A DNA stretch of 64,000 nt, taken from the NCBI RefSeq assembly GCF_007827695.1, contig NZ_VITA01000011.1:62001-126000 (forward strand), written 5' to 3'. The translations under genes and the position numbers were made by a program. Source of the DNA: Sinorhizobium medicae (GTDB taxonomy: Bacteria; Pseudomonadota; Alphaproteobacteria; Rhizobiales; Rhizobiaceae). Position 1 is the first letter of the stretch, and the number at the start of each line of letters is the position of its first letter. Positions 788 through 8,781 of the stretch are shown one piece after another. The notes under the pieces are model-generated. The model was given only the letters and a program-made list of their open reading frames with translations. It did no database searches and was not told the origin of the DNA.

Positions 788-1180
788 TCAGCTGGCGCGG
801 ACCACCGCGTCGCCTCGTGCGGCAAGTGCGGCCAGATCGGCTGGCTTCAACTCGACCGATTCACCGCAGCCGCAGGCCGAAGTCTGATTCGGGTTATTGA
901 AGGTGAAGCCGGAGCGCAGGGTTGTGGTCTCGAAATCCATCTGAGTACCGAGAAGATAGAGCACCGCCTCGGGGGCGACCCAGACTTTCGCACCCTCATG
1001 CTCGACCAGGTCGTCCTTCGAACTGGGTTCAGTGACCAGATCGATGGCATATTCCATGCCCGCGCATCCGCCCTTCTTGATGCTGACGCGAATGCCCTTA
1101 GCCTCGCCTCCGGCATTTTCCACGATCGACCGGACTCGGTTGGCGGCGGCATCGGTCAGGCTCATTATGGCAAAGCCCAT
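788..1180 (-). CDS. sufA: A-type iron-sulfur cluster carrier SufA (HesB/IscA family)
   Basis: 130 residues. A-type carriers bind a [2Fe-2S] or [4Fe-4S] cluster and pass it to apo-proteins. The three ligand cysteines are present: Cys39 in KKGGCAGMEY and Cys103/Cys105 in the C-terminal CGCGESV motif. I chose the ATG at 1180 because AAGGAG lies 9 nt upstream; an earlier in-frame ATG at 1270 would add 30 residues unlike the family. The protein continues about 14 residues past CGCGESV. It is the last gene of the suf operon, 103 nt after the DUF59 gene. Confidence 0.92.
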   Translation of the reverse strand: MGFAIMSLTDAAANRVRSIVENAGGEAKGIRVSIKKGGCAGMEYAIDLVTEPSSKDDLVEHEGAKVWVAPEAVLYLLGTQMDFETTTLRSGFTFNNPNQTSACGCGESVELKPADLAALAARGDAVVRAS

Positions 1181-1283
1181 GGGCTTCATCTCCTTCGCGT
1201 CGCCGGGGTAAAGGCCCGGCGCTTCCAGATTGAATGTAATGCCCGCTTGCTGGCGGATCAATATCGGCAAGTGCTCAATGCGC

Positions 1284-1664
1284 TCAATACCAGCCGAGCG
1301 CCACCTGTGCTTCTTCCGACATCCGGTCAGGCGTCCATGGGGGGTCGAAGGTCATCGACACTTCTACGCCCGAAATACCCTCGACAGTGCCGACGGCATT
1401 CTCGACCCATCCCGGCATCTCACCCGCAACCGGGCAACCCGGCGCGGTCAACGTCATGTCGATCTTCACCATCCGATCATCCTCGATGTCGATCTTGTAG
1501 ATGAGACCGAGTTCAAAGATGTCGGCGGGGATCTCCGGATCGTAGACCGTCTTCAGAGCGGCGATGATGTCGTCGCTGAGGCGCGCCAGTTCCTCCGGCG
1601 GAATCGCCGAATGAACGATACCTTCGCGGACGTCGATTTTTTCTTGTGTTTGCTCGAGACCCAT
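1284..1664 (-). CDS. sufT: SUF-associated DUF59/MIP18-family Fe-S assembly factor
   Basis: 126 residues of the DUF59 (MIP18) family, whose members help Fe-S proteins mature. The family signature DPEIPADIFELGLIY is near residues 42-56 and the conserved cysteine is in LTAPGCPVAGEMP. The first 20 or so residues are a short N-terminal extension. A purine-rich AGGGA precedes the ATG by 7 nt. It lies between sufS and sufA, 10 nt after sufS. As I recall, the same gene in the Agrobacterium operon is called sufX. The exact biochemical step is not established from sequence. Confidence 0.88.
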   Translation of the reverse strand: MGLEQTQEKIDVREGIVHSAIPPEELARLSDDIIAALKTVYDPEIPADIFELGLIYKIDIEDDRMVKIDMTLTAPGCPVAGEMPGWVENAVGTVEGISGVEVSMTFDPPWTPDRMSEEAQVALGWY

Positions 1665-1674
1665 GTCCGTTTCC

Positions 1675-2916
1675 CTAAGCGAAAAATTTGCGTGCGTGTT
1701 CCAGCGCGTCCGCCAGCGCGTCGACCTCGGCGCGGGTGTTGTAGAGACCGAAGGACGCTCGGCATGTGGAGGTGACGCCGAACCGATTCAAGAGCGGCTG
1801 CGCACAATGCGTGCCGGCCCTGACCGCTATGCCGGCACGGTCGATCACCATGGAGACGTCGTGGGCGTGGATGCCGGCGAGCTCAAAGGAAAAGATGCTT
1901 CCCTTGCCGGCCGCGTCGCCAAAGACGCGGAGAGAATTGACCCCGGACAGACGTTCGCGGGCGTAGGTCGTCAGATCCGCCTCATGCGCCCTGATGGCTT
2001 CACGACCGATCTTTTCCATGTAATCAAGCGCATAGCCGAGCCCGATCGCTTGGACGATCGGCGGCGTGCCGGCCTCGAAGCGGTGGGGCGGATCGTTATA
2101 GGTGACGCGTTCCTCGGTGACTTCCTCGATCATCTCGCCGCCTCCCATGAAGGGGCGCATTTCCTTCAACCGTTCGGTCTTGCCGTAGAGAACGCCGATG
2201 CCGGAAGGACCGTAGAGCTTGTGACCAGTCATCACATACCAGTCGCAATCGATGTCCTGGACGTCGACGGGCATATGCACCGCGCCCTGGCTACCGTCGA
2301 TGAGCACCGGGATTCCACGCTCGCGGGCAATGCGGCAAATCTCCTTCACCGGAACAACCGTACCCAGAGCATTCGACATGTGTGTGACGGCAATAAGTTT
2401 AGTGCGCTCCGTCAGGCACGCGACGAAATCCTCGATGTGAAACGCGCCATCGCCATCGACTGGCGCCCAAACGAGCTTGGCGCCCTGCCGCTCGCGTATG
2501 AAGTGCCAGGGCACGATGTTGGAGTGATGCTCCATGATCGAAATTACGATCTCATCCCCCTCGCCGAGCCTGGGCATTCCGTAGCCGTAGGCCACGGTGT
2601 TGATCGCCTCGGTCGAGGACTTGGTGAAGATGATATTGTCGACCGATGGCGCATTCAGGAAACGGCGTACCTTTTCGCGCGCCTGCTCATAAGCCTCCGT
2701 CGCGGCATTCGACAAAAAATGCAAGCCACGATGGACGTTGGCATACTCGTTGGAATAGGCATTGGAAACAGCATCGATGACGAGCTGCGGCTTCTGCGCC
2801 GATGCGCCGTTGTCGAGATAGACGAGCGGTTTGCCGTAGACCGATCTTGAGAGGATCGGAAAGTCCTTTCGGATCGCTTCTACGTCATAGGCCGGCACCG
2901 GCACAGAATGTTCCAT
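1675..2916 (-). CDS. sufS: Cysteine desulfurase SufS (group II)
   Basis: 413 residues. This PLP enzyme takes sulfur from cysteine as a persulfide for SUF cluster assembly. Visible are the histidines of IMEHHSNIVPW (130-131), the PLP lysine K233 in MTGHKLYGPSG and the persulfide cysteine C371 in RAGTHCAQPLL, with the RAGxHCAQP context of group II enzymes. The ATG at 2916 is used; an in-frame TTG at 2928, directly after the sufD stop, would add four residues. It is very close to sufD and so probably translationally coupled. Group II desulfurases normally need SufE or SufU; neither is in the operon. Confidence 0.93.
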   Translation of the reverse strand: MEHSVPVPAYDVEAIRKDFPILSRSVYGKPLVYLDNGASAQKPQLVIDAVSNAYSNEYANVHRGLHFLSNAATEAYEQAREKVRRFLNAPSVDNIIFTKSSTEAINTVAYGYGMPRLGEGDEIVISIMEHHSNIVPWHFIRERQGAKLVWAPVDGDGAFHIEDFVACLTERTKLIAVTHMSNALGTVVPVKEICRIARERGIPVLIDGSQGAVHMPVDVQDIDCDWYVMTGHKLYGPSGIGVLYGKTERLKEMRPFMGGGEMIEEVTEERVTYNDPPHRFEAGTPPIVQAIGLGYALDYMEKIGREAIRAHEADLTTYARERLSGVNSLRVFGDAAGKGSIFSFELAGIHAHDVSMVIDRAGIAVRAGTHCAQPLLNRFGVTSTCRASFGLYNTRAEVDALADALEHARKFFA

Positions 2917-2928
2917 ATTCTTGTCCAA

Positions 2929-4206
2929 TCAGGCGTGTTTTTCGAGCCAGGCCGAAATCACGCTCTCGAGCGACTCAACCAGGTCTTCGTCGTCTTCCAG
3001 CTCCTCGACGATCTCGGCGACGAAGGCGTTGACGAGCATCGCACGCGCCTTGTTCTCCGGTATGCCGCGTGCGAGCAAGTAGAAGAGTTGCGTATGATCG
3101 ATATCGATGACCGTCGCACCGTGACCGCACTGAACGTCATCAGCGAAGATCTCCAGCTCAGGCTTTGCCGAGAAGTCCGCATCGTCTGACAGGAGCAGCG
3201 TGTTGCACGACATTTTCGCGTCGGTTTTCTGCGCATCCTGCGCGACCAGGATCTTGCCCTGAAACACGCCCTTCGCCCGGTCGAAGACGACGTTGCGGAT
3301 GATCTCGCTCGATGTCGTGTGCGGCACATCATGGCTCAACGTGAACGTCAGATCCGTGTGGCTTTCACCGCCGAGAAGGTTGATCCCACGTAGCGTGAGG
3401 TCAGCGCCTTCTCCAGTCGCCCGGCCATGGAGCTCCTGACGGACCAGCTTTCCGCCGGCATTGATGACGAAGAGGTGCAGCTTCGCGTCCTTGCCGAGAT
3501 CGAAGCGAATCTGGCCGAGATGCGTATCCGCAGGTCCCTGCTGCTGCAGGATGATCCAGATCACGTCCGCACCTTCAGCAAGCGTCACGTCGCTGACCGA
3601 GGATACGAAGCTCTGCTCCGCGTTCGTCGAAAGATGCCGCTCGATTACGGTCGCTTTGGCACCGGCTCCGAAAGAAACCGGAAAGCGCGTATGCGCCTGT
3701 CCATGGCTCTGGACCACCTGGATTTCGACCGGAGCCTCGATCTCAACACCGGCTGCGACCGCGATTTCCAGTCCGCCGCGCACGAGCCCGCCATTGATCC
3801 GTCCGATCGCATCATCCGCGCCGAGCACGGAGAGGCCGGCTGCTGCCGAACCATCGAGCAGGCTCTCGGTGTATGAGCGCACGGTCAGCTGTTCCGGAAC
3901 GTTCTTGATGTCGGCCTGTCCGTTGCGCACCGAGAGAACCGACGAACCCGGAACGAGCGGATCGACGCGTTCGGCAAAGGCAGTCGGATCCGCCGCTGGT
4001 ACAGCCCGCAGCAGCGTGCGCAGGTCCGTATAATGCCATGCCTCGACGCGACGGGTCGGCAGGCCGGAAGTTTTCAACTCGTGAACCAGCGTGTCGCGCA
4101 GCGAGAGCACGGCGCCGTCACCCGGCAAATCACCGATCTGCGCCGTATAGGCATCGACGAGCGCCGTTTCCGCCGCCGTCATTTTAATGGCCTGTTGCAT
4201 ATTCAT
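2929..4206 (-). CDS. sufD: Fe-S cluster scaffold complex subunit SufD
   Basis: 425 residues. SufD partners SufB and SufC in the SufBC2D scaffold, where clusters are built and iron is taken up. The C-terminal beta-helix core is recognisable (AKMSCNTLLLSDDADFSAKPELEIFADD, then CGHGATVIDIDHTQLFYL and ARGIPENKARAMLVNAF), including the conserved Cys and His of DVQCGHGATV. The first 120 residues are more variable, as is usual. GAAGGAG sits 7 nt before the ATG. It follows sufC after 22 nt and nearly touches sufS. Confidence 0.93.
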   Translation of the reverse strand: MNMQQAIKMTAAETALVDAYTAQIGDLPGDGAVLSLRDTLVHELKTSGLPTRRVEAWHYTDLRTLLRAVPAADPTAFAERVDPLVPGSSVLSVRNGQADIKNVPEQLTVRSYTESLLDGSAAAGLSVLGADDAIGRINGGLVRGGLEIAVAAGVEIEAPVEIQVVQSHGQAHTRFPVSFGAGAKATVIERHLSTNAEQSFVSSVSDVTLAEGADVIWIILQQQGPADTHLGQIRFDLGKDAKLHLFVINAGGKLVRQELHGRATGEGADLTLRGINLLGGESHTDLTFTLSHDVPHTTSSEIIRNVVFDRAKGVFQGKILVAQDAQKTDAKMSCNTLLLSDDADFSAKPELEIFADDVQCGHGATVIDIDHTQLFYLLARGIPENKARAMLVNAFVAEIVEELEDDEDLVESLESVISAWLEKHA

Positions 4207-4228
4207 TCGAACACTCCTTCAACAGGCT

Positions 4229-4984
4229 TCAGGCCGCCGCCTCGATGATTTCAGCGTAGCCGTTAGCCTCGAGTTCGTGCGCCAGCGTCTTGTCACCGGA
4301 CTTGATGACCTGCCCTTTGTAGAGGACGTGGACGGTATCCGGAACGATGTAGTTGAGAAGACGCTGATAGTGCGTGATGACCACGACCGCACGATCGGGC
4401 GAACGCAGGGCATTGACTCCATCGGCAACGATCTTCAGCGCGTCGATGTCGAGACCGGAATCGGTTTCGTCGAGAACGCAGAGCTTCGGCTCGAGCAGAG
4501 CCATCTGCAGAATTTCCGCGCGCTTCTTTTCACCGCCGGAGAAACCGACATTGAGCGGACGGCGCAGCATTTCAGGCGCGATCTTCAGCTCGGCGGCGGC
4601 TTCCTTGACGCGACGCATGAATTCCGGCGTGGTCAATTCGTCTTCGCCGCGATACTTGCGCTGTTCGTTCATCGCCACCTTCAGGAACTGCATGGTCGCG
4701 ACGCCCGGGATCTCCACCGGGTACTGGAACGCCAGGAAGATGCCCTTTGCGGCTCGCTCGGAAGCGTCGAGCTCCAGAATGCTTTCGCCGTTATAAAGGA
4801 TGTCGCCTTCGGTCACTTCGTAATCTTCGCGTCCGGAGAGAATATAGGAGAGCGTCGATTTGCCGGAGCCGTTCGGCCCCATGATGGCCGCGACCTCGCC
4901 GGCCTTTACCGTCAGGTTCAGTCCGCGGATGATCTCGGTGCCGTCCTCGGCAATACGTGCGTGCAGGTTCTTGATTTCAAGCAT
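4229..4984 (-). CDS. sufC: Fe-S assembly ATPase SufC
   Basis: 251 residues, the normal length of this ABC-type ATPase that powers the SufBCD scaffold. Walker A GPNGSGKST is at 36-44, the signature FSGGEKKR at 148-155 and Walker B LCVLDETDSGLD at 168-179; the extended DETDSGLD form is typical of SufC. There are no membrane segments, as expected for a soluble member. The ATG at 4984 has AGAGGA 9 nt upstream. A 108-nt gap with a hairpin separates it from sufB. Confidence 0.96.
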   Translation of the reverse strand: MLEIKNLHARIAEDGTEIIRGLNLTVKAGEVAAIMGPNGSGKSTLSYILSGREDYEVTEGDILYNGESILELDASERAAKGIFLAFQYPVEIPGVATMQFLKVAMNEQRKYRGEDELTTPEFMRRVKEAAAELKIAPEMLRRPLNVGFSGGEKKRAEILQMALLEPKLCVLDETDSGLDIDALKIVADGVNALRSPDRAVVVITHYQRLLNYIVPDTVHVLYKGQVIKSGDKTLAHELEANGYAEIIEAAA

Positions 4985-5055
4985 TTATGTTCGTCCTCTT
5001 GGGCAACGAAATCTTCATTGCGCACAATTCCGTGCGCCGGTTCGGTATTCGGTCG

Positions 5056-5083
5056 GGACCTGGATTACGATGATCTCAGGTCC
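5056..5083 (-). repeat. Hairpin in the sufB-sufC intergenic gap
   Basis: GGACCTG (5056-5062) pairs with CAGGTCC (5077-5083) around a 14-nt loop, 9 nt beyond the sufB stop codon on the minus strand. No T-run follows. It may protect the 3' end of sufB mRNA or trim readthrough into sufC. Confidence 0.4.
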
Positions 5084-5092
5084 TCGTCCCGC

Positions 5093-6562
5093 TTAGCCCA
5101 CGGAGCCTTCGAGCGAGATGCCGATCAGCTTCTGCGCTTCGACGGCGAATTCCATCGGCAGTTCCTGGATGACTTCCTTAACGAAGCCGTTGACGATCAG
5201 AGCGATCGCCGCCTCTTCCGGGATGCCGCGCTGCAGGCAGTAGAAGAGCTGGTCTTCGGAAATCTTGGACGTGGTCGCCTCGTGCTCGAACTGAGCCGTC
5301 GAGTTCTTCGCCTCGATATAGGGTACCGTGTGGGCGCCGCACCTGTCGCCGATCAGAAGCGAGTCGCATTGCGTGAAGTTGCGGGCATTCTCCGCCTTAC
5401 GATGCGCAGAAACCTGACCGCGATAGGTGTTTTCCGAGACACCCGCCGCAATACCCTTCGAGATGATGCGGCTCGAAGTGTTCTTGCCGAGATGGATCAT
5501 CTTCGTACCGGAGTCGATCTGCTGATGACCGTTGGAAACAGCGATGGAATAGAATTCCCCGCGCGAACCGTCGCCGCGCAGGATGCAGGACGGATACTTC
5601 CAGGTGATCGCCGATCCGGTCTCGACCTGCGTCCAGGAGATCTTCGAGTTCTTGCCGCGGCAATCGCCGCGCTTGGTCACGAAGTTATAGATGCCGCCCT
5701 TGCCCTGCTTATCGCCAGGATACCAGTTCTGCACGGTCGAATATTTGATCTCGGCATCGTCGAGCGCAATCAGTTCGACCACTGCCGCGTGAAGCTGGTT
5801 TTCGTCGCGTTGCGGTGCCGTGCAGCCCTCGAGATAGGAGACGTAGGCGCCTTCGTCGGCGATGATGAGCGTCCGTTCGAACTGACCCGTGTTCTTCTCG
5901 TTGATACGGAAGTAGGTCGAAAGCTCCATCGGGCACCGAACGCCTTTCGGCACATAAACGAAAGAACCGTCGGTGAAGACCGCGGAATTCAATGTCGCAT
6001 AGAAGTTATCCGACTGCGGCACGACCGTACCGAGATACTTCCGCACGAGATCGGGGTGTTCCCGCATCGCCTCGGAGATCGACATGAAGATCACGCCGGC
6101 CTTCTTCAGCTCTTCCTTGAACGTGGTGACGACGGAGACGGAGTCGAACACCGCATCGACTGCGATCCTCGATTTCTCGACGCCGGCGAGAATCTCCTGC
6201 TCTTTCAGCGGAATTCCGAGCTTCTCATAAACCCTGAGCAGTTCCGGATCGACCTCGTCGAGCGACTTCGGCCCGCTCGTGCTTTTCGGCGCGGCGTAAT
6301 AGTGGAGATCGTTGAAGTCGATCTTGGGGTAGCGCACGCGCGCCCAGCTCGGCTCCTCCATGGTTTGCCAGCGGCTATAAGCCTGGAGGCGCCATTCGAG
6401 CATCCACTCCGGTTCGTTCTTCTTGGACGATATCAGGCGGATGATATCCTCGGACAGACCCTTCGGTGCCTTGTCCATCTCGATCGTCGTCTCGAAGCCG
6501 TATTTATACTGGTCCACGTCGATCTGGCGGACCTGATCAATGGTTTCCTGCACGGCAGGCAT
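5093..6562 (-). CDS. sufB: Fe-S cluster scaffold protein SufB
   Basis: 489 residues, the usual rhizobial SufB length. SufB is the main scaffold where sulfur arrives and the nascent cluster forms with SufC2 and SufD. Characteristic segments include [53 protein letters not shown] and the C-terminal [19 protein letters not shown] core. I chose the ATG at 6562 because GGAG lies 6 nt upstream; an earlier in-frame start at 6607 lacks family similarity. It is the second gene of the operon, 154 nt after the first desulfurase, with a strong hairpin in that gap. Confidence 0.96.
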
Positions 6563-6673
6563 GTCGTTCTCCAATCTCGCCGGATCAAAGGTCCGGCAGC
6601 TTGTCAATACGATGCAAGTATTCGCGCACCGCTTATGTAATGGCTAAAAGGCGCTTTTCACCCCATTTGCCAA

Positions 6674-6716: not shown

Positions 6717-7883
6717 TCAGGCCGCCTGTCCGGTCGAGGGTCGCCGCGCCGCCACTTTCGCGAATATCGCGGCGCAGCGCTCGATTTCCACCTGCGTCGT
6801 CGCTTCGCCGATCGAAATCCTGAGCGCGCCCTGTCGCGGATCGTAGCCCATAGCCGTCAGAACGTGACTTTGCCCGACCTTCCCGGATGAACAGGCCGAA
6901 CCTGCCGACAAGGCGACGCCCTCGAGATCGAATGCGATCTGCCCCGTTTCCGCCTTGAGGCCTGGAAGGGTAAAGAAGCACGTATTTGCGAGGCGCGAAA
7001 CGCTCTGCCCATGGATGATCACGTCAGGCGCGCTGGATCGCATTTTCATTTCGAGACTGTCGCGCATTGCGGCGACAGCGGCCATCCGCCCATCTATATG
7101 CCTGGCGGCGGCGCGGGCCGCGGCCGCAAAGCCCGCCAGTGCCGCTGCATTCTCGGTCCCCGAACGATGTCCCTTTTCCTGTCCGCCTCCGCGGATCAAG
7201 GAAGACGGCATCATGATTTCGCCTCGGGCGACGAGGGCGCCGGCCCCCTTCGGTCCGCCGATCTTATGCGACGACAGGATGAGGAAATCCGCACCGAGCG
7301 CCTCGATCGAAAGCGGGAGGCGCCCGGCCGCCTGCACCGCATCGACGACCAGTATGCCGCCATGCGCGCGCACGATGGCCGCAACGTCCGCGATCGGCTG
7401 GACAACGCCCGTTTCATTGTTGGCAAGCATGACCGCCACCATGGGTAGACCGGTCTCACGGTCATGCGCCTGCAGCTGGGTTTCGAGCGCTGCGCAGTCG
7501 ATGATCCCGGCGCTTGTCACCGCTATCTCACAAGTATTATCGCGCGAGAAGCGCCCGCCCTCTCGAACTGCCGGATGCTCGATCGCCGAAACATAGAGCT
7601 TCCCCGCCTTCAGCGGCGTGCGCCCCATGCGAAACTCCGGCGTCAGCACCATATTCGCCGCTTCCGTGGCGCCACTGGTGAAGACGACCGCCGCGGCTTG
7701 CGCGCCGCAGAGCGCGGCAATATCGCGCCGGGCGCTCTCGACAAGAGCCCGGACAGCACGCCCCTCGCCGTGAACAGAAGAAGGATTGCCGAGATGATCG
7801 AGCGCGGACACGAGCGCCTCGCGCGCTTCGGGCAGAAGCGGCGCCGTGGCGTTCCAGTCCATATAGATGCGCGATCCCGACAT
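6717..7883 (-). CDS. sufS2: Cysteine desulfurase, NifS/IscS type (first gene of suf operon)
   Basis: 388 residues, a group I (NifS/IscS-like) PLP desulfurase distinct from the SufS further down the same operon. The PLP lysine is K207 in SSHKIGGPKG and the catalytic cysteine is C331 in SAGSACSSGK, on the longer flexible loop of group I enzymes. The N-terminus YMDWNATAPLLPEA is also family-typical. I chose the ATG at 7883, with AAAGGA 5 nt upstream; an in-frame start at 7925 is less likely. In Agrobacterium the equivalent gene heads sufS2BCDS1XA and is needed for RirA function (published for that species). Here it is the promoter-proximal gene behind a candidate RirA box. Confidence 0.9.
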   Translation of the reverse strand: MSGSRIYMDWNATAPLLPEAREALVSALDHLGNPSSVHGEGRAVRALVESARRDIAALCGAQAAAVVFTSGATEAANMVLTPEFRMGRTPLKAGKLYVSAIEHPAVREGGRFSRDNTCEIAVTSAGIIDCAALETQLQAHDRETGLPMVAVMLANNETGVVQPIADVAAIVRAHGGILVVDAVQAAGRLPLSIEALGADFLILSSHKIGGPKGAGALVARGEIMMPSSLIRGGGQEKGHRSGTENAAALAGFAAAARAAARHIDGRMAAVAAMRDSLEMKMRSSAPDVIIHGQSVSRLANTCFFTLPGLKAETGQIAFDLEGVALSAGSACSSGKVGQSHVLTAMGYDPRQGALRISIGEATTQVEIERCAAIFAKVAARRPSTGQAA

Positions 7884-8000
7884 CGATCCTTTACCAGAGC
7901 CTCGGCCGATCGCATCGATCGGCACCGTTGCATTTTCCTTGAATTTTCCGCGCCGCTTGCCTTAAGAGACGAAGCACATGCGGAATTCCGCACCGAAGTT

Positions 8001-8029
8001 TTGAACGGTTCTAAAGTAGTTTCTAGAAA
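8001..8029 (+). promoter_or_regulatory. Predicted promoter of the alpha/beta hydrolase gene
   Basis: TTGAAC (8001-8006), 17-nt spacer, TAGAAA (8024-8029). The predicted start near 8036 falls inside the TGA-N9-TCA site at 8033-8047, so binding there would block initiation. Confidence 0.5.
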
Positions 8030-8048
8030 AGCTGACTGGTTTAGTCAA
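8020..8048 (-). promoter_or_regulatory. Predicted promoter of the suf operon
   Basis: Read on the minus strand: TTGACT (8048-8043), 17-nt spacer, TAGAAA (8025-8020). The -10 is half of the palindrome TTTCTAGAAA (8020-8029), whose other half is the -10 of the divergent promoter. The leader to the first suf gene is about 130 nt. Confidence 0.6.
8033..8047. promoter_or_regulatory. Candidate RirA iron-responsive operator (IRO box)
   Basis: TGACTGGTTTAGTCA is an exact match to the rhizobial IRO consensus TGA-N9-TCA, and its arms TGACT/AGTCA are fully palindromic. It overlaps the -35 of the suf promoter and the predicted start site of the opposite promoter. RirA is an Rrf2-family Fe-S repressor in rhizobia. 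The GACT-N5-AGTC core also resembles IscR-type sites of the same regulator family, so another Rrf2 protein could be the ligand. Confidence 0.6.
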
Positions 8049-8103
8049 GACAGATCGGCGCGAAGAACCACGAATTTGAACCAGAAACACTCCCGGAGAG
8101 CCA

Positions 8104-8781
8104 ATGCCCGAAATCATCTTCAACGGACCGGCCGGTCGCCTCGAGGGCCGTTATCAGCCTTCGAAGCAGAAGAGCGCACCGATTGCGATCATCCTGCACC
8201 CGCACCCGCAGTTCGGCGGCACGATGAACAACCAGATCGTTTACCAGCTCTTTTACATGTTCCAGAAGCGGGGCTTTACCACCTTACGCTTCAATTTCCG
8301 GGGTATCGGGCGCAGCCAGGGCGAATTCGACCATGGTGCAGGCGAGCTTTCCGACGCCGCATCCGCGCTCGATTGGGTGCAGAGCCTGCACCCTGATTCG
8401 AAGAGCTGCTGGGTTGCAGGCTACTCGTTCGGCGCATGGATCGGCATGCAGCTGCTGATGCGGCGCCCTGAAATCGAGGGCTTCATGGCCGTCGCGCCGC
8501 AGCCGAACATCTACGACTTTTCATTCCTGGCGCCCTGCCCCTCGTCCGGCCTGATCATCAATGGCGATTCGGACAGGGTCGCGCCGGAGAAAGACGTCAA
8601 TGGGCTCGTCGAGAAGCTGAAAGCACAGAAGGGCATCCTGATCACGCACAAAACGGTGCCGGGTGCGAACCACTTCTTCAATGGCCAGGTCGAAACCCTG
8701 ATGGCCGAATGCGAAGACTATCTCGACCGCCGCCTGAACGGTGAACTGGTACCGGAGCCTGTGGCGAAGCGGATTCGCTGA
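8104..8781 (+). CDS. Alpha/beta hydrolase (COG2945-like)
   Basis: 225 residues, soluble, no signal peptide. The fold is visible from HPHPQFGGTMNN (oxyanion region), FNFRGIGRSQGEF, the nucleophile elbow GYSFGAW with its serine, NGDSDRVAPEKDV with the acid, and GANHFFNG with the catalytic histidine. The substrate is unknown. CGGAGAG precedes the ATG. It is transcribed away from the suf operon from a promoter that overlaps the suf promoter and its candidate iron operator, so it may be iron-regulated; that is inference. Confidence 0.85.
   Translation: MPEIIFNGPAGRLEGRYQPSKQKSAPIAIILHPHPQFGGTMNNQIVYQLFYMFQKRGFTTLRFNFRGIGRSQGEFDHGAGELSDAASALDWVQSLHPDSKSCWVAGYSFGAWIGMQLLMRRPEIEGFMAVAPQPNIYDFSFLAPCPSSGLIINGDSDRVAPEKDVNGLVEKLKAQKGILITHKTVPGANHFFNGQVETLMAECEDYLDRRLNGELVPEPVAKRIR

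Follow-up and report, generated by a model that had tools for sequence, protein, structure and literature searches.

We analysed a stretch of 64,000 nucleotides of Sinorhizobium medicae DNA (the window) in which a suf unit for Fe-S cluster assembly and an alpha/beta hydrolase gene diverge from a common intergenic region (Table 1). The suf unit runs leftward on the minus strand. Its first gene, assigned from its open reading frame (ORF) and an NCBIfam profile search, encodes an IscS/NifS-type cysteine desulfurase; the best family, TIGR03402, scored 283 bits, below its cut-off of 530, and no family's cut-off was reached. The ORF opens with GTG at 7925, and the ATG at 7883 is probably a likelier start. 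The remainder of the unit (788..6607) comprises six minus-strand ORFs, each scoring above its NCBIfam cut-off. This one suf unit holds two unlike cysteine desulfurases, SufS and the IscS/NifS-type enzyme. The hydrolase, encoded on the plus strand, is a relative of Atu1826; in the literature covered, Atu1826 is matched by one paper, on the hydrolase fold. RirA (NF008886, 289 bits against a cut-off of 193 in the profile search), Irr and RpoH are all encoded in the S. medicae genome.

For comparison, 151 genomes from the same family were searched for the hydrolase, with a match in 149 and none in two, and its upstream DNA was compared at 148 loci; the locus of genome G089 was excluded, as only 388 bases precede the gene before the contig ends. 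A divergent cysteine desulfurase lies within 1500 bases of the hydrolase at all 148 loci. The gene pair is thus old, and the region between the genes is open to footprinting. We refer to the 30 loci whose hydrolases are the most similar (L001-L030, where L001 is the S. medicae window itself) as near loci, and to the 125 loci that carry the ICE-like box and GTCAA in register, both described below, as the 125-locus set. The other 23 of the 148 fall outside this set, and counts out of 95 refer to the 125 minus the 30 near loci. Shuffled controls were single-base (mononucleotide) shuffles throughout.

Table 1. Genes, promoter elements and candidate operators at the locus, and the other exact ICE-like sites in the S. 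medicae genome
Feature	Positions	Strand	Basis or status
sufA	788-1270	-	NCBIfam, above cut-off
SUF-associated protein	1284-1664	-	NCBIfam, above cut-off
sufS	1675-2928	-	NCBIfam, above cut-off
sufD	2929-4206	-	NCBIfam, above cut-off
sufC	4229-4984	-	NCBIfam, above cut-off
sufB	5093-6607	-	NCBIfam, above cut-off
Cysteine desulfurase, IscS/NifS kind	6717-7925	-	suf unit gene 1; ORF and NCBIfam profile search
Predicted hydrolase -35, CTTGAA	7938-7943	+	TTGAAN-N18-TA in 124/148 loci, shuffle mean 1.1
Predicted hydrolase -10, TAAGAG (weak here)	7963-7968	+	TA exactly N18 after the -35 hexamer, 129/135 loci
Dyad TGCGGAATTCCGCA	7979-7992		lies between the predicted suf and hydrolase starts; may form a hairpin in both leaders
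Irr/ICE-like box, TTTTGAA-CGG-TTCTAAA	7999-8015		over the predicted suf start; candidate Irr site
Initially annotated hydrolase promoter, TTGAAC-N17-TAGAAA	8001-8029	+	rejected as a conserved promoter, 10/125 loci
suf -10, TAGAAA (plus strand: TTTCTA)	8020-8025	-	N17 from the -35; TA in 120/125 loci
IRO-like site TGACTGGTTTAGTCA, TGA-N9-TCA	8033-8047		over the suf -35; candidate RirA operator
suf -35, TTGACT (plus strand: AGTCAA)	8043-8048	-	GTCAA in register with the ICE-like box, 125/148 loci
Alpha/beta hydrolase, 225 aa	8104-8781	+	ORF; Atu1826 relative (PDB 2i3d), E 7.5e-148
Exact ICE-like site, siderophore-binding-like neighbour	1501 in L162		
Exact ICE-like site, mbfA	1501 in L163		
Exact ICE-like site, NfuA-like neighbour	1501 in L164		
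Exact ICE-like site, rirA	1501 in L166		
Exact ICE-like site, no evident iron gene	1501 in L167		
Exact ICE-like site, hemA (5-aminolevulinate synthase)	1501 in L168		

The suf promoter and two candidate iron operators

The initial annotation had placed two back-to-back promoters and one iron operator within 8001-8048, and all the letters and coordinates that it gave are present. Its suf promoter on the minus strand is conserved in both hexamers across the 125-locus set, where the -10 reads TA[AG]AA in 81 of 125 loci. The ICE-like sequence and GTCAA are separated by 24 to 30 bases at 125 of the 148 loci and by exactly 28 at 87. Within these 87, the two ICE-like halves, the TA of the suf -10 and CGTCAAG carry 1.4 to 2.3 bits per base, and most flanking positions carry less than 0.2 bits. 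From the spacing, suf transcription is predicted to start at about 8012-8014. A strict sigma-70 scan of both strands of 7880-8110 returned no promoter, and a terminator scan was likewise empty; the former misses the suf promoter too because it demands a T at the last -10 position. An Rfam search of 7700-8300 gave no match at gathering scores. In the predicted suf leader, a mini-ORF of ATG TGC TTC GTC TCT TAA (MCFVS) occupies 7962-7979 of the minus strand. Its stop codon overlaps the hydrolase -10 proposed below; some near relatives have a similar ending, and in others the ATG is absent.

Over the predicted suf start lies a box that the initial annotation had overlooked, although the hexamer TTGAAC, there taken for the hydrolase -35, sits within it. 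The Irr/ICE consensus is of the type TTTAGAA-N3-TTCTAAA. The corresponding pattern TTTNGAANNNTTCNAAA occurs at 109 of the 148 loci, compared to 0 in each of 20 shuffled sets. Seven exact sites exist in the S. medicae genome including the one at 7999-8015, and allowing one mismatch gives 19 sites versus 6 for the reversed pattern. Five of the other six exact sites adjoin iron, haem or Fe-S genes (Table 1); here, the mbfA, hemA and rirA neighbours scored above their NCBIfam cut-offs and the NfuA-like and siderophore-binding-like neighbours below. Across the 125-locus set, the outer TTT, GAA, TTC and AAA of the box are almost fixed, while the fourth base is free (T 81, C 27, G 9, A 8). Judged by its sequence, this is the pattern of an operator and unlike that of a -35. 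Correspondingly, the hexamer at 8001-8006 reads TTGAAC in 40, TTGAAT in 33 and TCGAAT in 19 of these loci.

The presence of the box also follows that of Irr. It is found in 0 of 6 genomes that score below the Irr cut-off versus 125 of 142 others (Fisher 7.7e-6, or 6e-5 if G005, at 168.6 bits only 1.4 short of the cut-off of 170, is counted as Irr-positive), and both values overstate independence, since these six genomes, all small at 1.1-2.0 Mb, are possibly related. Among the 23 loci without an in-register box, L121 is one and L051 two mismatches away from it. Three fairly close relatives that possess Irr (L035, L037 and L039) have lost the register of ICE-like box and suf -35 and kept the CTTG-N-TA element described below. 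By its sequence, its conserved placement and its tie to the presence of Irr, the box thus matches the Irr/ICE type and is a candidate Irr site.

Published work, as far as the accessible portions of the reports go, bears on this assignment in several ways. A bound Irr site of R. sphaeroides, TTAGAAATATTCTAGA, is of the same type (PMC6956336), and at mbfA an Irr box over the start site fits repression (PMC3413700). In an R. sphaeroides irr mutant the suf genes were raised (PMC3413700); in vitro, Irr of this species bound near P3 and not to the predicted P1 and P2 regions (PMC6956336). sufS and sufB are absent from the Brucella Irr DAP-seq paper.

The second candidate operator is the exact TGA-N9-TCA at 8033-8047, which the initial annotation had correctly read over the suf -35 and attributed to RirA. 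Taken by frequency alone, this motif is about as common as chance would have it (16 in the window, shuffle mean 12.2), and its TCA half is at the same time part of the complement of the suf -35. The published data on sufB in a S. fredii rirA mutant, given below, point in the same direction, and the motif might accordingly be a by-product of the -35 and a chance TGA that RirA does not bind. We consider this improbable, given that at 30 of 30 near loci the TGA precedes the TCA of the suf -35 by exactly 12 bases while the core between the halves varies. Only 2 of the 95 other loci have it there, and for the remaining offsets examined (-26 to -3) the number of loci with a TGA ranges from 0 to 8 out of 125. 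With both halves kept at the promoter in near loci and rirA in the genome, the site is a candidate for RirA binding by its sequence and position. RirA scores above its cut-off in 144 of the 151 genomes and the IRO occurs at 32 of the 148 loci, so the site tracks a lineage rather than RirA as such; it is found in none of the seven genomes below the RirA cut-off. Of the two features that the initial annotation proposed to look for before suf in other Rhizobiaceae, the IRO recurs in the near loci, and the palindromic -10 occurs at 3 of 125 loci.

The published record on RirA control of suf, in the sections of the reports that were available, is mixed. Such control is stated for R. leguminosarum (PMC6386902, PMC5863699), and for A. 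tumefaciens, sufS2 is described as under RirA regulation, with derepression upon oxidative stress (PMC5863699). The suf genes of S. meliloti are listed as a RirA regulon member that is not iron-responsive, and those of S. fredii HH103 are up at low iron; in the rirA mutant of the latter, sufB was slightly down (2 +/- 1.3 fold), without derepression (PMC6386902). The word 'suf' is absent from the main text of the S. fredii RirA ChIP-seq paper.

The predicted hydrolase promoter

On the plus strand, a conserved element upstream of the hydrolase is TTGAAT-N18-TA at 7939-7964, within the suf leader. The general form TTGAAN-N18-TA is found at 124 of the 148 loci, compared to a shuffle mean of 1.1 and a maximum of 5. 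Other spacings from 12 to 25 occur at 0 to 9 loci, except for 58 at N22 that stem from the second TA of TATYTA, and on the opposite strand the count is 0 or 1. The element is kept at 15 of the 23 loci without an in-register ICE-like box. If the -35 is relaxed to TTG[AT]NN, all 30 near loci and 113 of the 118 others carry it. TATCTA and TATTTA are the commonest -10 sequences and together account for 53 of 135 loci. A narrower expression for the element matched 71 of 148 loci. Its widened version fixes the C before TTG, and this C is hence no evidence in itself; the regular element is visible in L016 and L029, and also in L011 with a different base before TTG. The spacing predicts a hydrolase start at about 7974-7976. 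These patterns suggest that the hydrolase is more likely transcribed mainly from 7938-7968 than from 8001-8029.

CTTGAA together with CCTAT[CT]T, the form of the -10 block in the wider family, resembles the RpoH1 promoter of S. meliloti, with 17 bases between the blocks and a weak -10 in the window. In the accessible text of two reports, RpoH1 promoters are given as CTTGAA-N16-CCTATAT (PMC8844928) and with a spacer of N15-16 (PMC4843759). The hydrolase element thus shares CTTGAA with them and differs in a spacer that is one base longer and, in S. medicae, in a degenerate -10. An exact RpoH-type pattern, CTTGAAN{15,18}CCTATNT, had 0 matches in the S. medicae genome, and four groES upstream regions used as RpoH controls contained no clear copy.

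Around the proposed -10, conservation among the near loci (CTTGCCTTATGACAC-like, 7952-7970) reaches well past the two hexamers, which an extra site or a function in the leader may explain. This breadth would also suit a different reading, in which CTTGAA-N18-TA is the site of another protein or an element of the suf leader and not a promoter at all. Its location inside that leader, the weak -10 in the window and the lack of an exact RpoH-type match in the genome or a clear copy at the four groES regions are in line with such a role. Against it, the element has a fixed spacing and the make-up of a -35 and -10, occurs in a single direction only, and is also present upstream of the hydrolase in L198, where the fetched stretch holds no suf match. 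We therefore regard a non-promoter function as unlikely.

The initial annotation had instead assigned the hydrolase to TTGAAC (8001-8006), N17 and TAGAAA (8024-8029), so that two back-to-back promoters would share a palindromic -10, TTTCTAGAAA (8020-8029), and one RirA operator would shut both. The hexamers do exist, the opposed -10 sequences (8020-8025 on the minus, 8024-8029 on the plus strand) overlap by two bases at 8024-8025, and the palindrome is rare, with one occurrence in the window where shuffles average 0.02. In addition, TAGAAA is found on the plus strand at 34 of 125 loci, including 26 of the 30 near loci with a spacing of N16 or N17 to the supposed -35. However, the palindrome is present at only 3 of the 125 loci (the S. 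medicae window, L003 and L006), and TTGAA-N17-TAGAAA at 10 of 125 and 7 of the 30 near loci. A T ends the plus -10 in just 3 of 125 loci, variation in the supposed -35 falls on the free base of the ICE-like box (TCGAAT at 19 of 125 loci), and a better conserved predicted plus-strand promoter exists upstream. Back-to-back promoters with one shared -10 are accordingly a highly improbable arrangement. As conserved features, both the palindrome and the promoter at 8001-8029 were discarded on these counts (3/125 and 10/125).

A compromise would be that the conserved upstream promoter of the hydrolase is joined, in the nearest relatives, by a secondary promoter at 8001-8029, which would rival suf and be accessible to Irr and RirA. 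Such bacteria commonly have tandem promoters, and the plus-strand TAGAAA is kept at 26 of 30 near loci. Yet a matching -35 (TTGAA at N17) accompanies it in only 7 of these 30, and the suf -10 together with the IRO flank can account for the conservation of 8024-8029. We consider a second promoter unlikely, and retain 7938-7968 as the predicted hydrolase promoter.

Probable facing promoters between two iron signals

So far, the patterns point to 7999-8048 as the regulatory core of a leftward suf promoter under two iron signals, faced by a separate hydrolase promoter at 7938-7968. We put the probability of this reading at roughly two in three. The data directly show the elements with their spacing, conservation and distribution among genomes, the kept gene neighbourhood, and the genes for RirA, Irr and RpoH; binding by the regulators, the start sites, the direction of the Irr and RirA effects, the sigma factor and interference are inferred. 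With ample iron and Fe-S clusters, RirA would occupy the IRO-like site over the suf -35; under haem or iron shortage, Irr would occupy the ICE-like box over the suf start. This would place suf between two opposing iron signals. The suf RNA would run leftward from about 8013 and the hydrolase RNA rightward from about 7975, through both operators and the suf promoter, so that each polymerase would cross the other unit's promoter. The two RNAs would be complementary over about 38 nt of their 5' ends (about 7975-8013), and both iron sites would be located in the hydrolase leader. Between the two predicted starts, inverted repeats of at least 5 pairs occur in 38% of 112 loci compared to 14% in mononucleotide shuffles, a moderate excess; the one in S. 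medicae is the dyad listed in Table 1.

This arrangement alters how the two units may be coupled. The initial proposal that one bound repressor could shut both stands insofar as a repressor could touch both; the sites lie downstream of the predicted hydrolase start, where they might act as roadblocks, and not over its promoter. Interference between the polymerases is possible in the form of head-on transcription rather than as rivalry for one -10. What had first been observed at 8001-8048 is thus partly confirmed, and the interpretation attached to it partly supported.

Beyond the family, an order-level search yielded loci from the best 30 of 120 matching genomes, of which 28 were new; two of them (L177 and L178, the latter from a genome already sampled) belong to the same family and 26 to others. 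Among the 26 other-family loci from these best 30 of 120 genomes, 24 have a divergent cysteine desulfurase match, 10 the ICE expression and 5 CTTGA[AT]-N18..20-TA. For all 28 loci from the same best 30 of 120 genomes, the counts are 12 for the ICE expression and 7 for CTTGA[AT]-N18..20-TA (shuffle mean 0.3).

Rodionov and colleagues reportedly predicted RirA and Irr sites before suf in the Rhizobiales in 2006, and together with a prediction for R. sphaeroides this makes dual control of suf an arrangement of a known kind. At the isc-suf promoter P2 of R. sphaeroides, the available part of the report gives a predicted IscR box at -36 to -19 and an Irr box at -13 to +1 (PMC6956336). P2 and the S. 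medicae suf promoter are alike in that the -35 region carries a site for an Rrf2-family regulator and the start of the Fe-S assembly operon an Irr site. They differ in that the former site is of the RirA type in S. medicae and not of the IscR type; for P2, Irr binding is unconfirmed and a facing hydrolase promoter goes unmentioned in that part of the text (PMC6956336). The suf operons of R. leguminosarum and A. tumefaciens, compared at the level of operon, regulators and site types, are of the same type, with the same two regulators and site types in the accessible descriptions. In the portion of the mbfA report at hand, the Irr box has the same repressor geometry, over the start, and mbfA differs from S. 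medicae suf in having a single promoter and no IRO (PMC3413700). Among the literature matches listed, which leave subscription journals largely uncovered, no title pairs the suf operon with the hydrolase.

The dual RirA/Irr control has known counterparts; the less ordinary feature is the predicted head-on hydrolase promoter. The rereading of a supposed -35 as part of an operator also counsels caution when promoters are called by eye. More speculatively, Fe-S assembly and the Atu1826-type hydrolase may form an ancient regulatory pair in the family, in which the promoters face each other, each transcript crosses the opposite promoter, the 5' ends are complementary, the Irr and RirA sites serve as roadblocks for the hydrolase, and the two units are driven in opposite directions by iron and a heat or stress sigma factor; we offer this tentatively and think it considerably less probable than not. 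If it were true, the locus would offer a natural example of head-on promoters gated by iron and retained in more than 100 genera. It would also make the hydrolase a so far unrecognised partner in Fe-S metabolism or in stress repair, and Atu1826 (PDB 2i3d), whose structure is solved and which has no assigned role, would gain a testable link to Fe-S cluster assembly.
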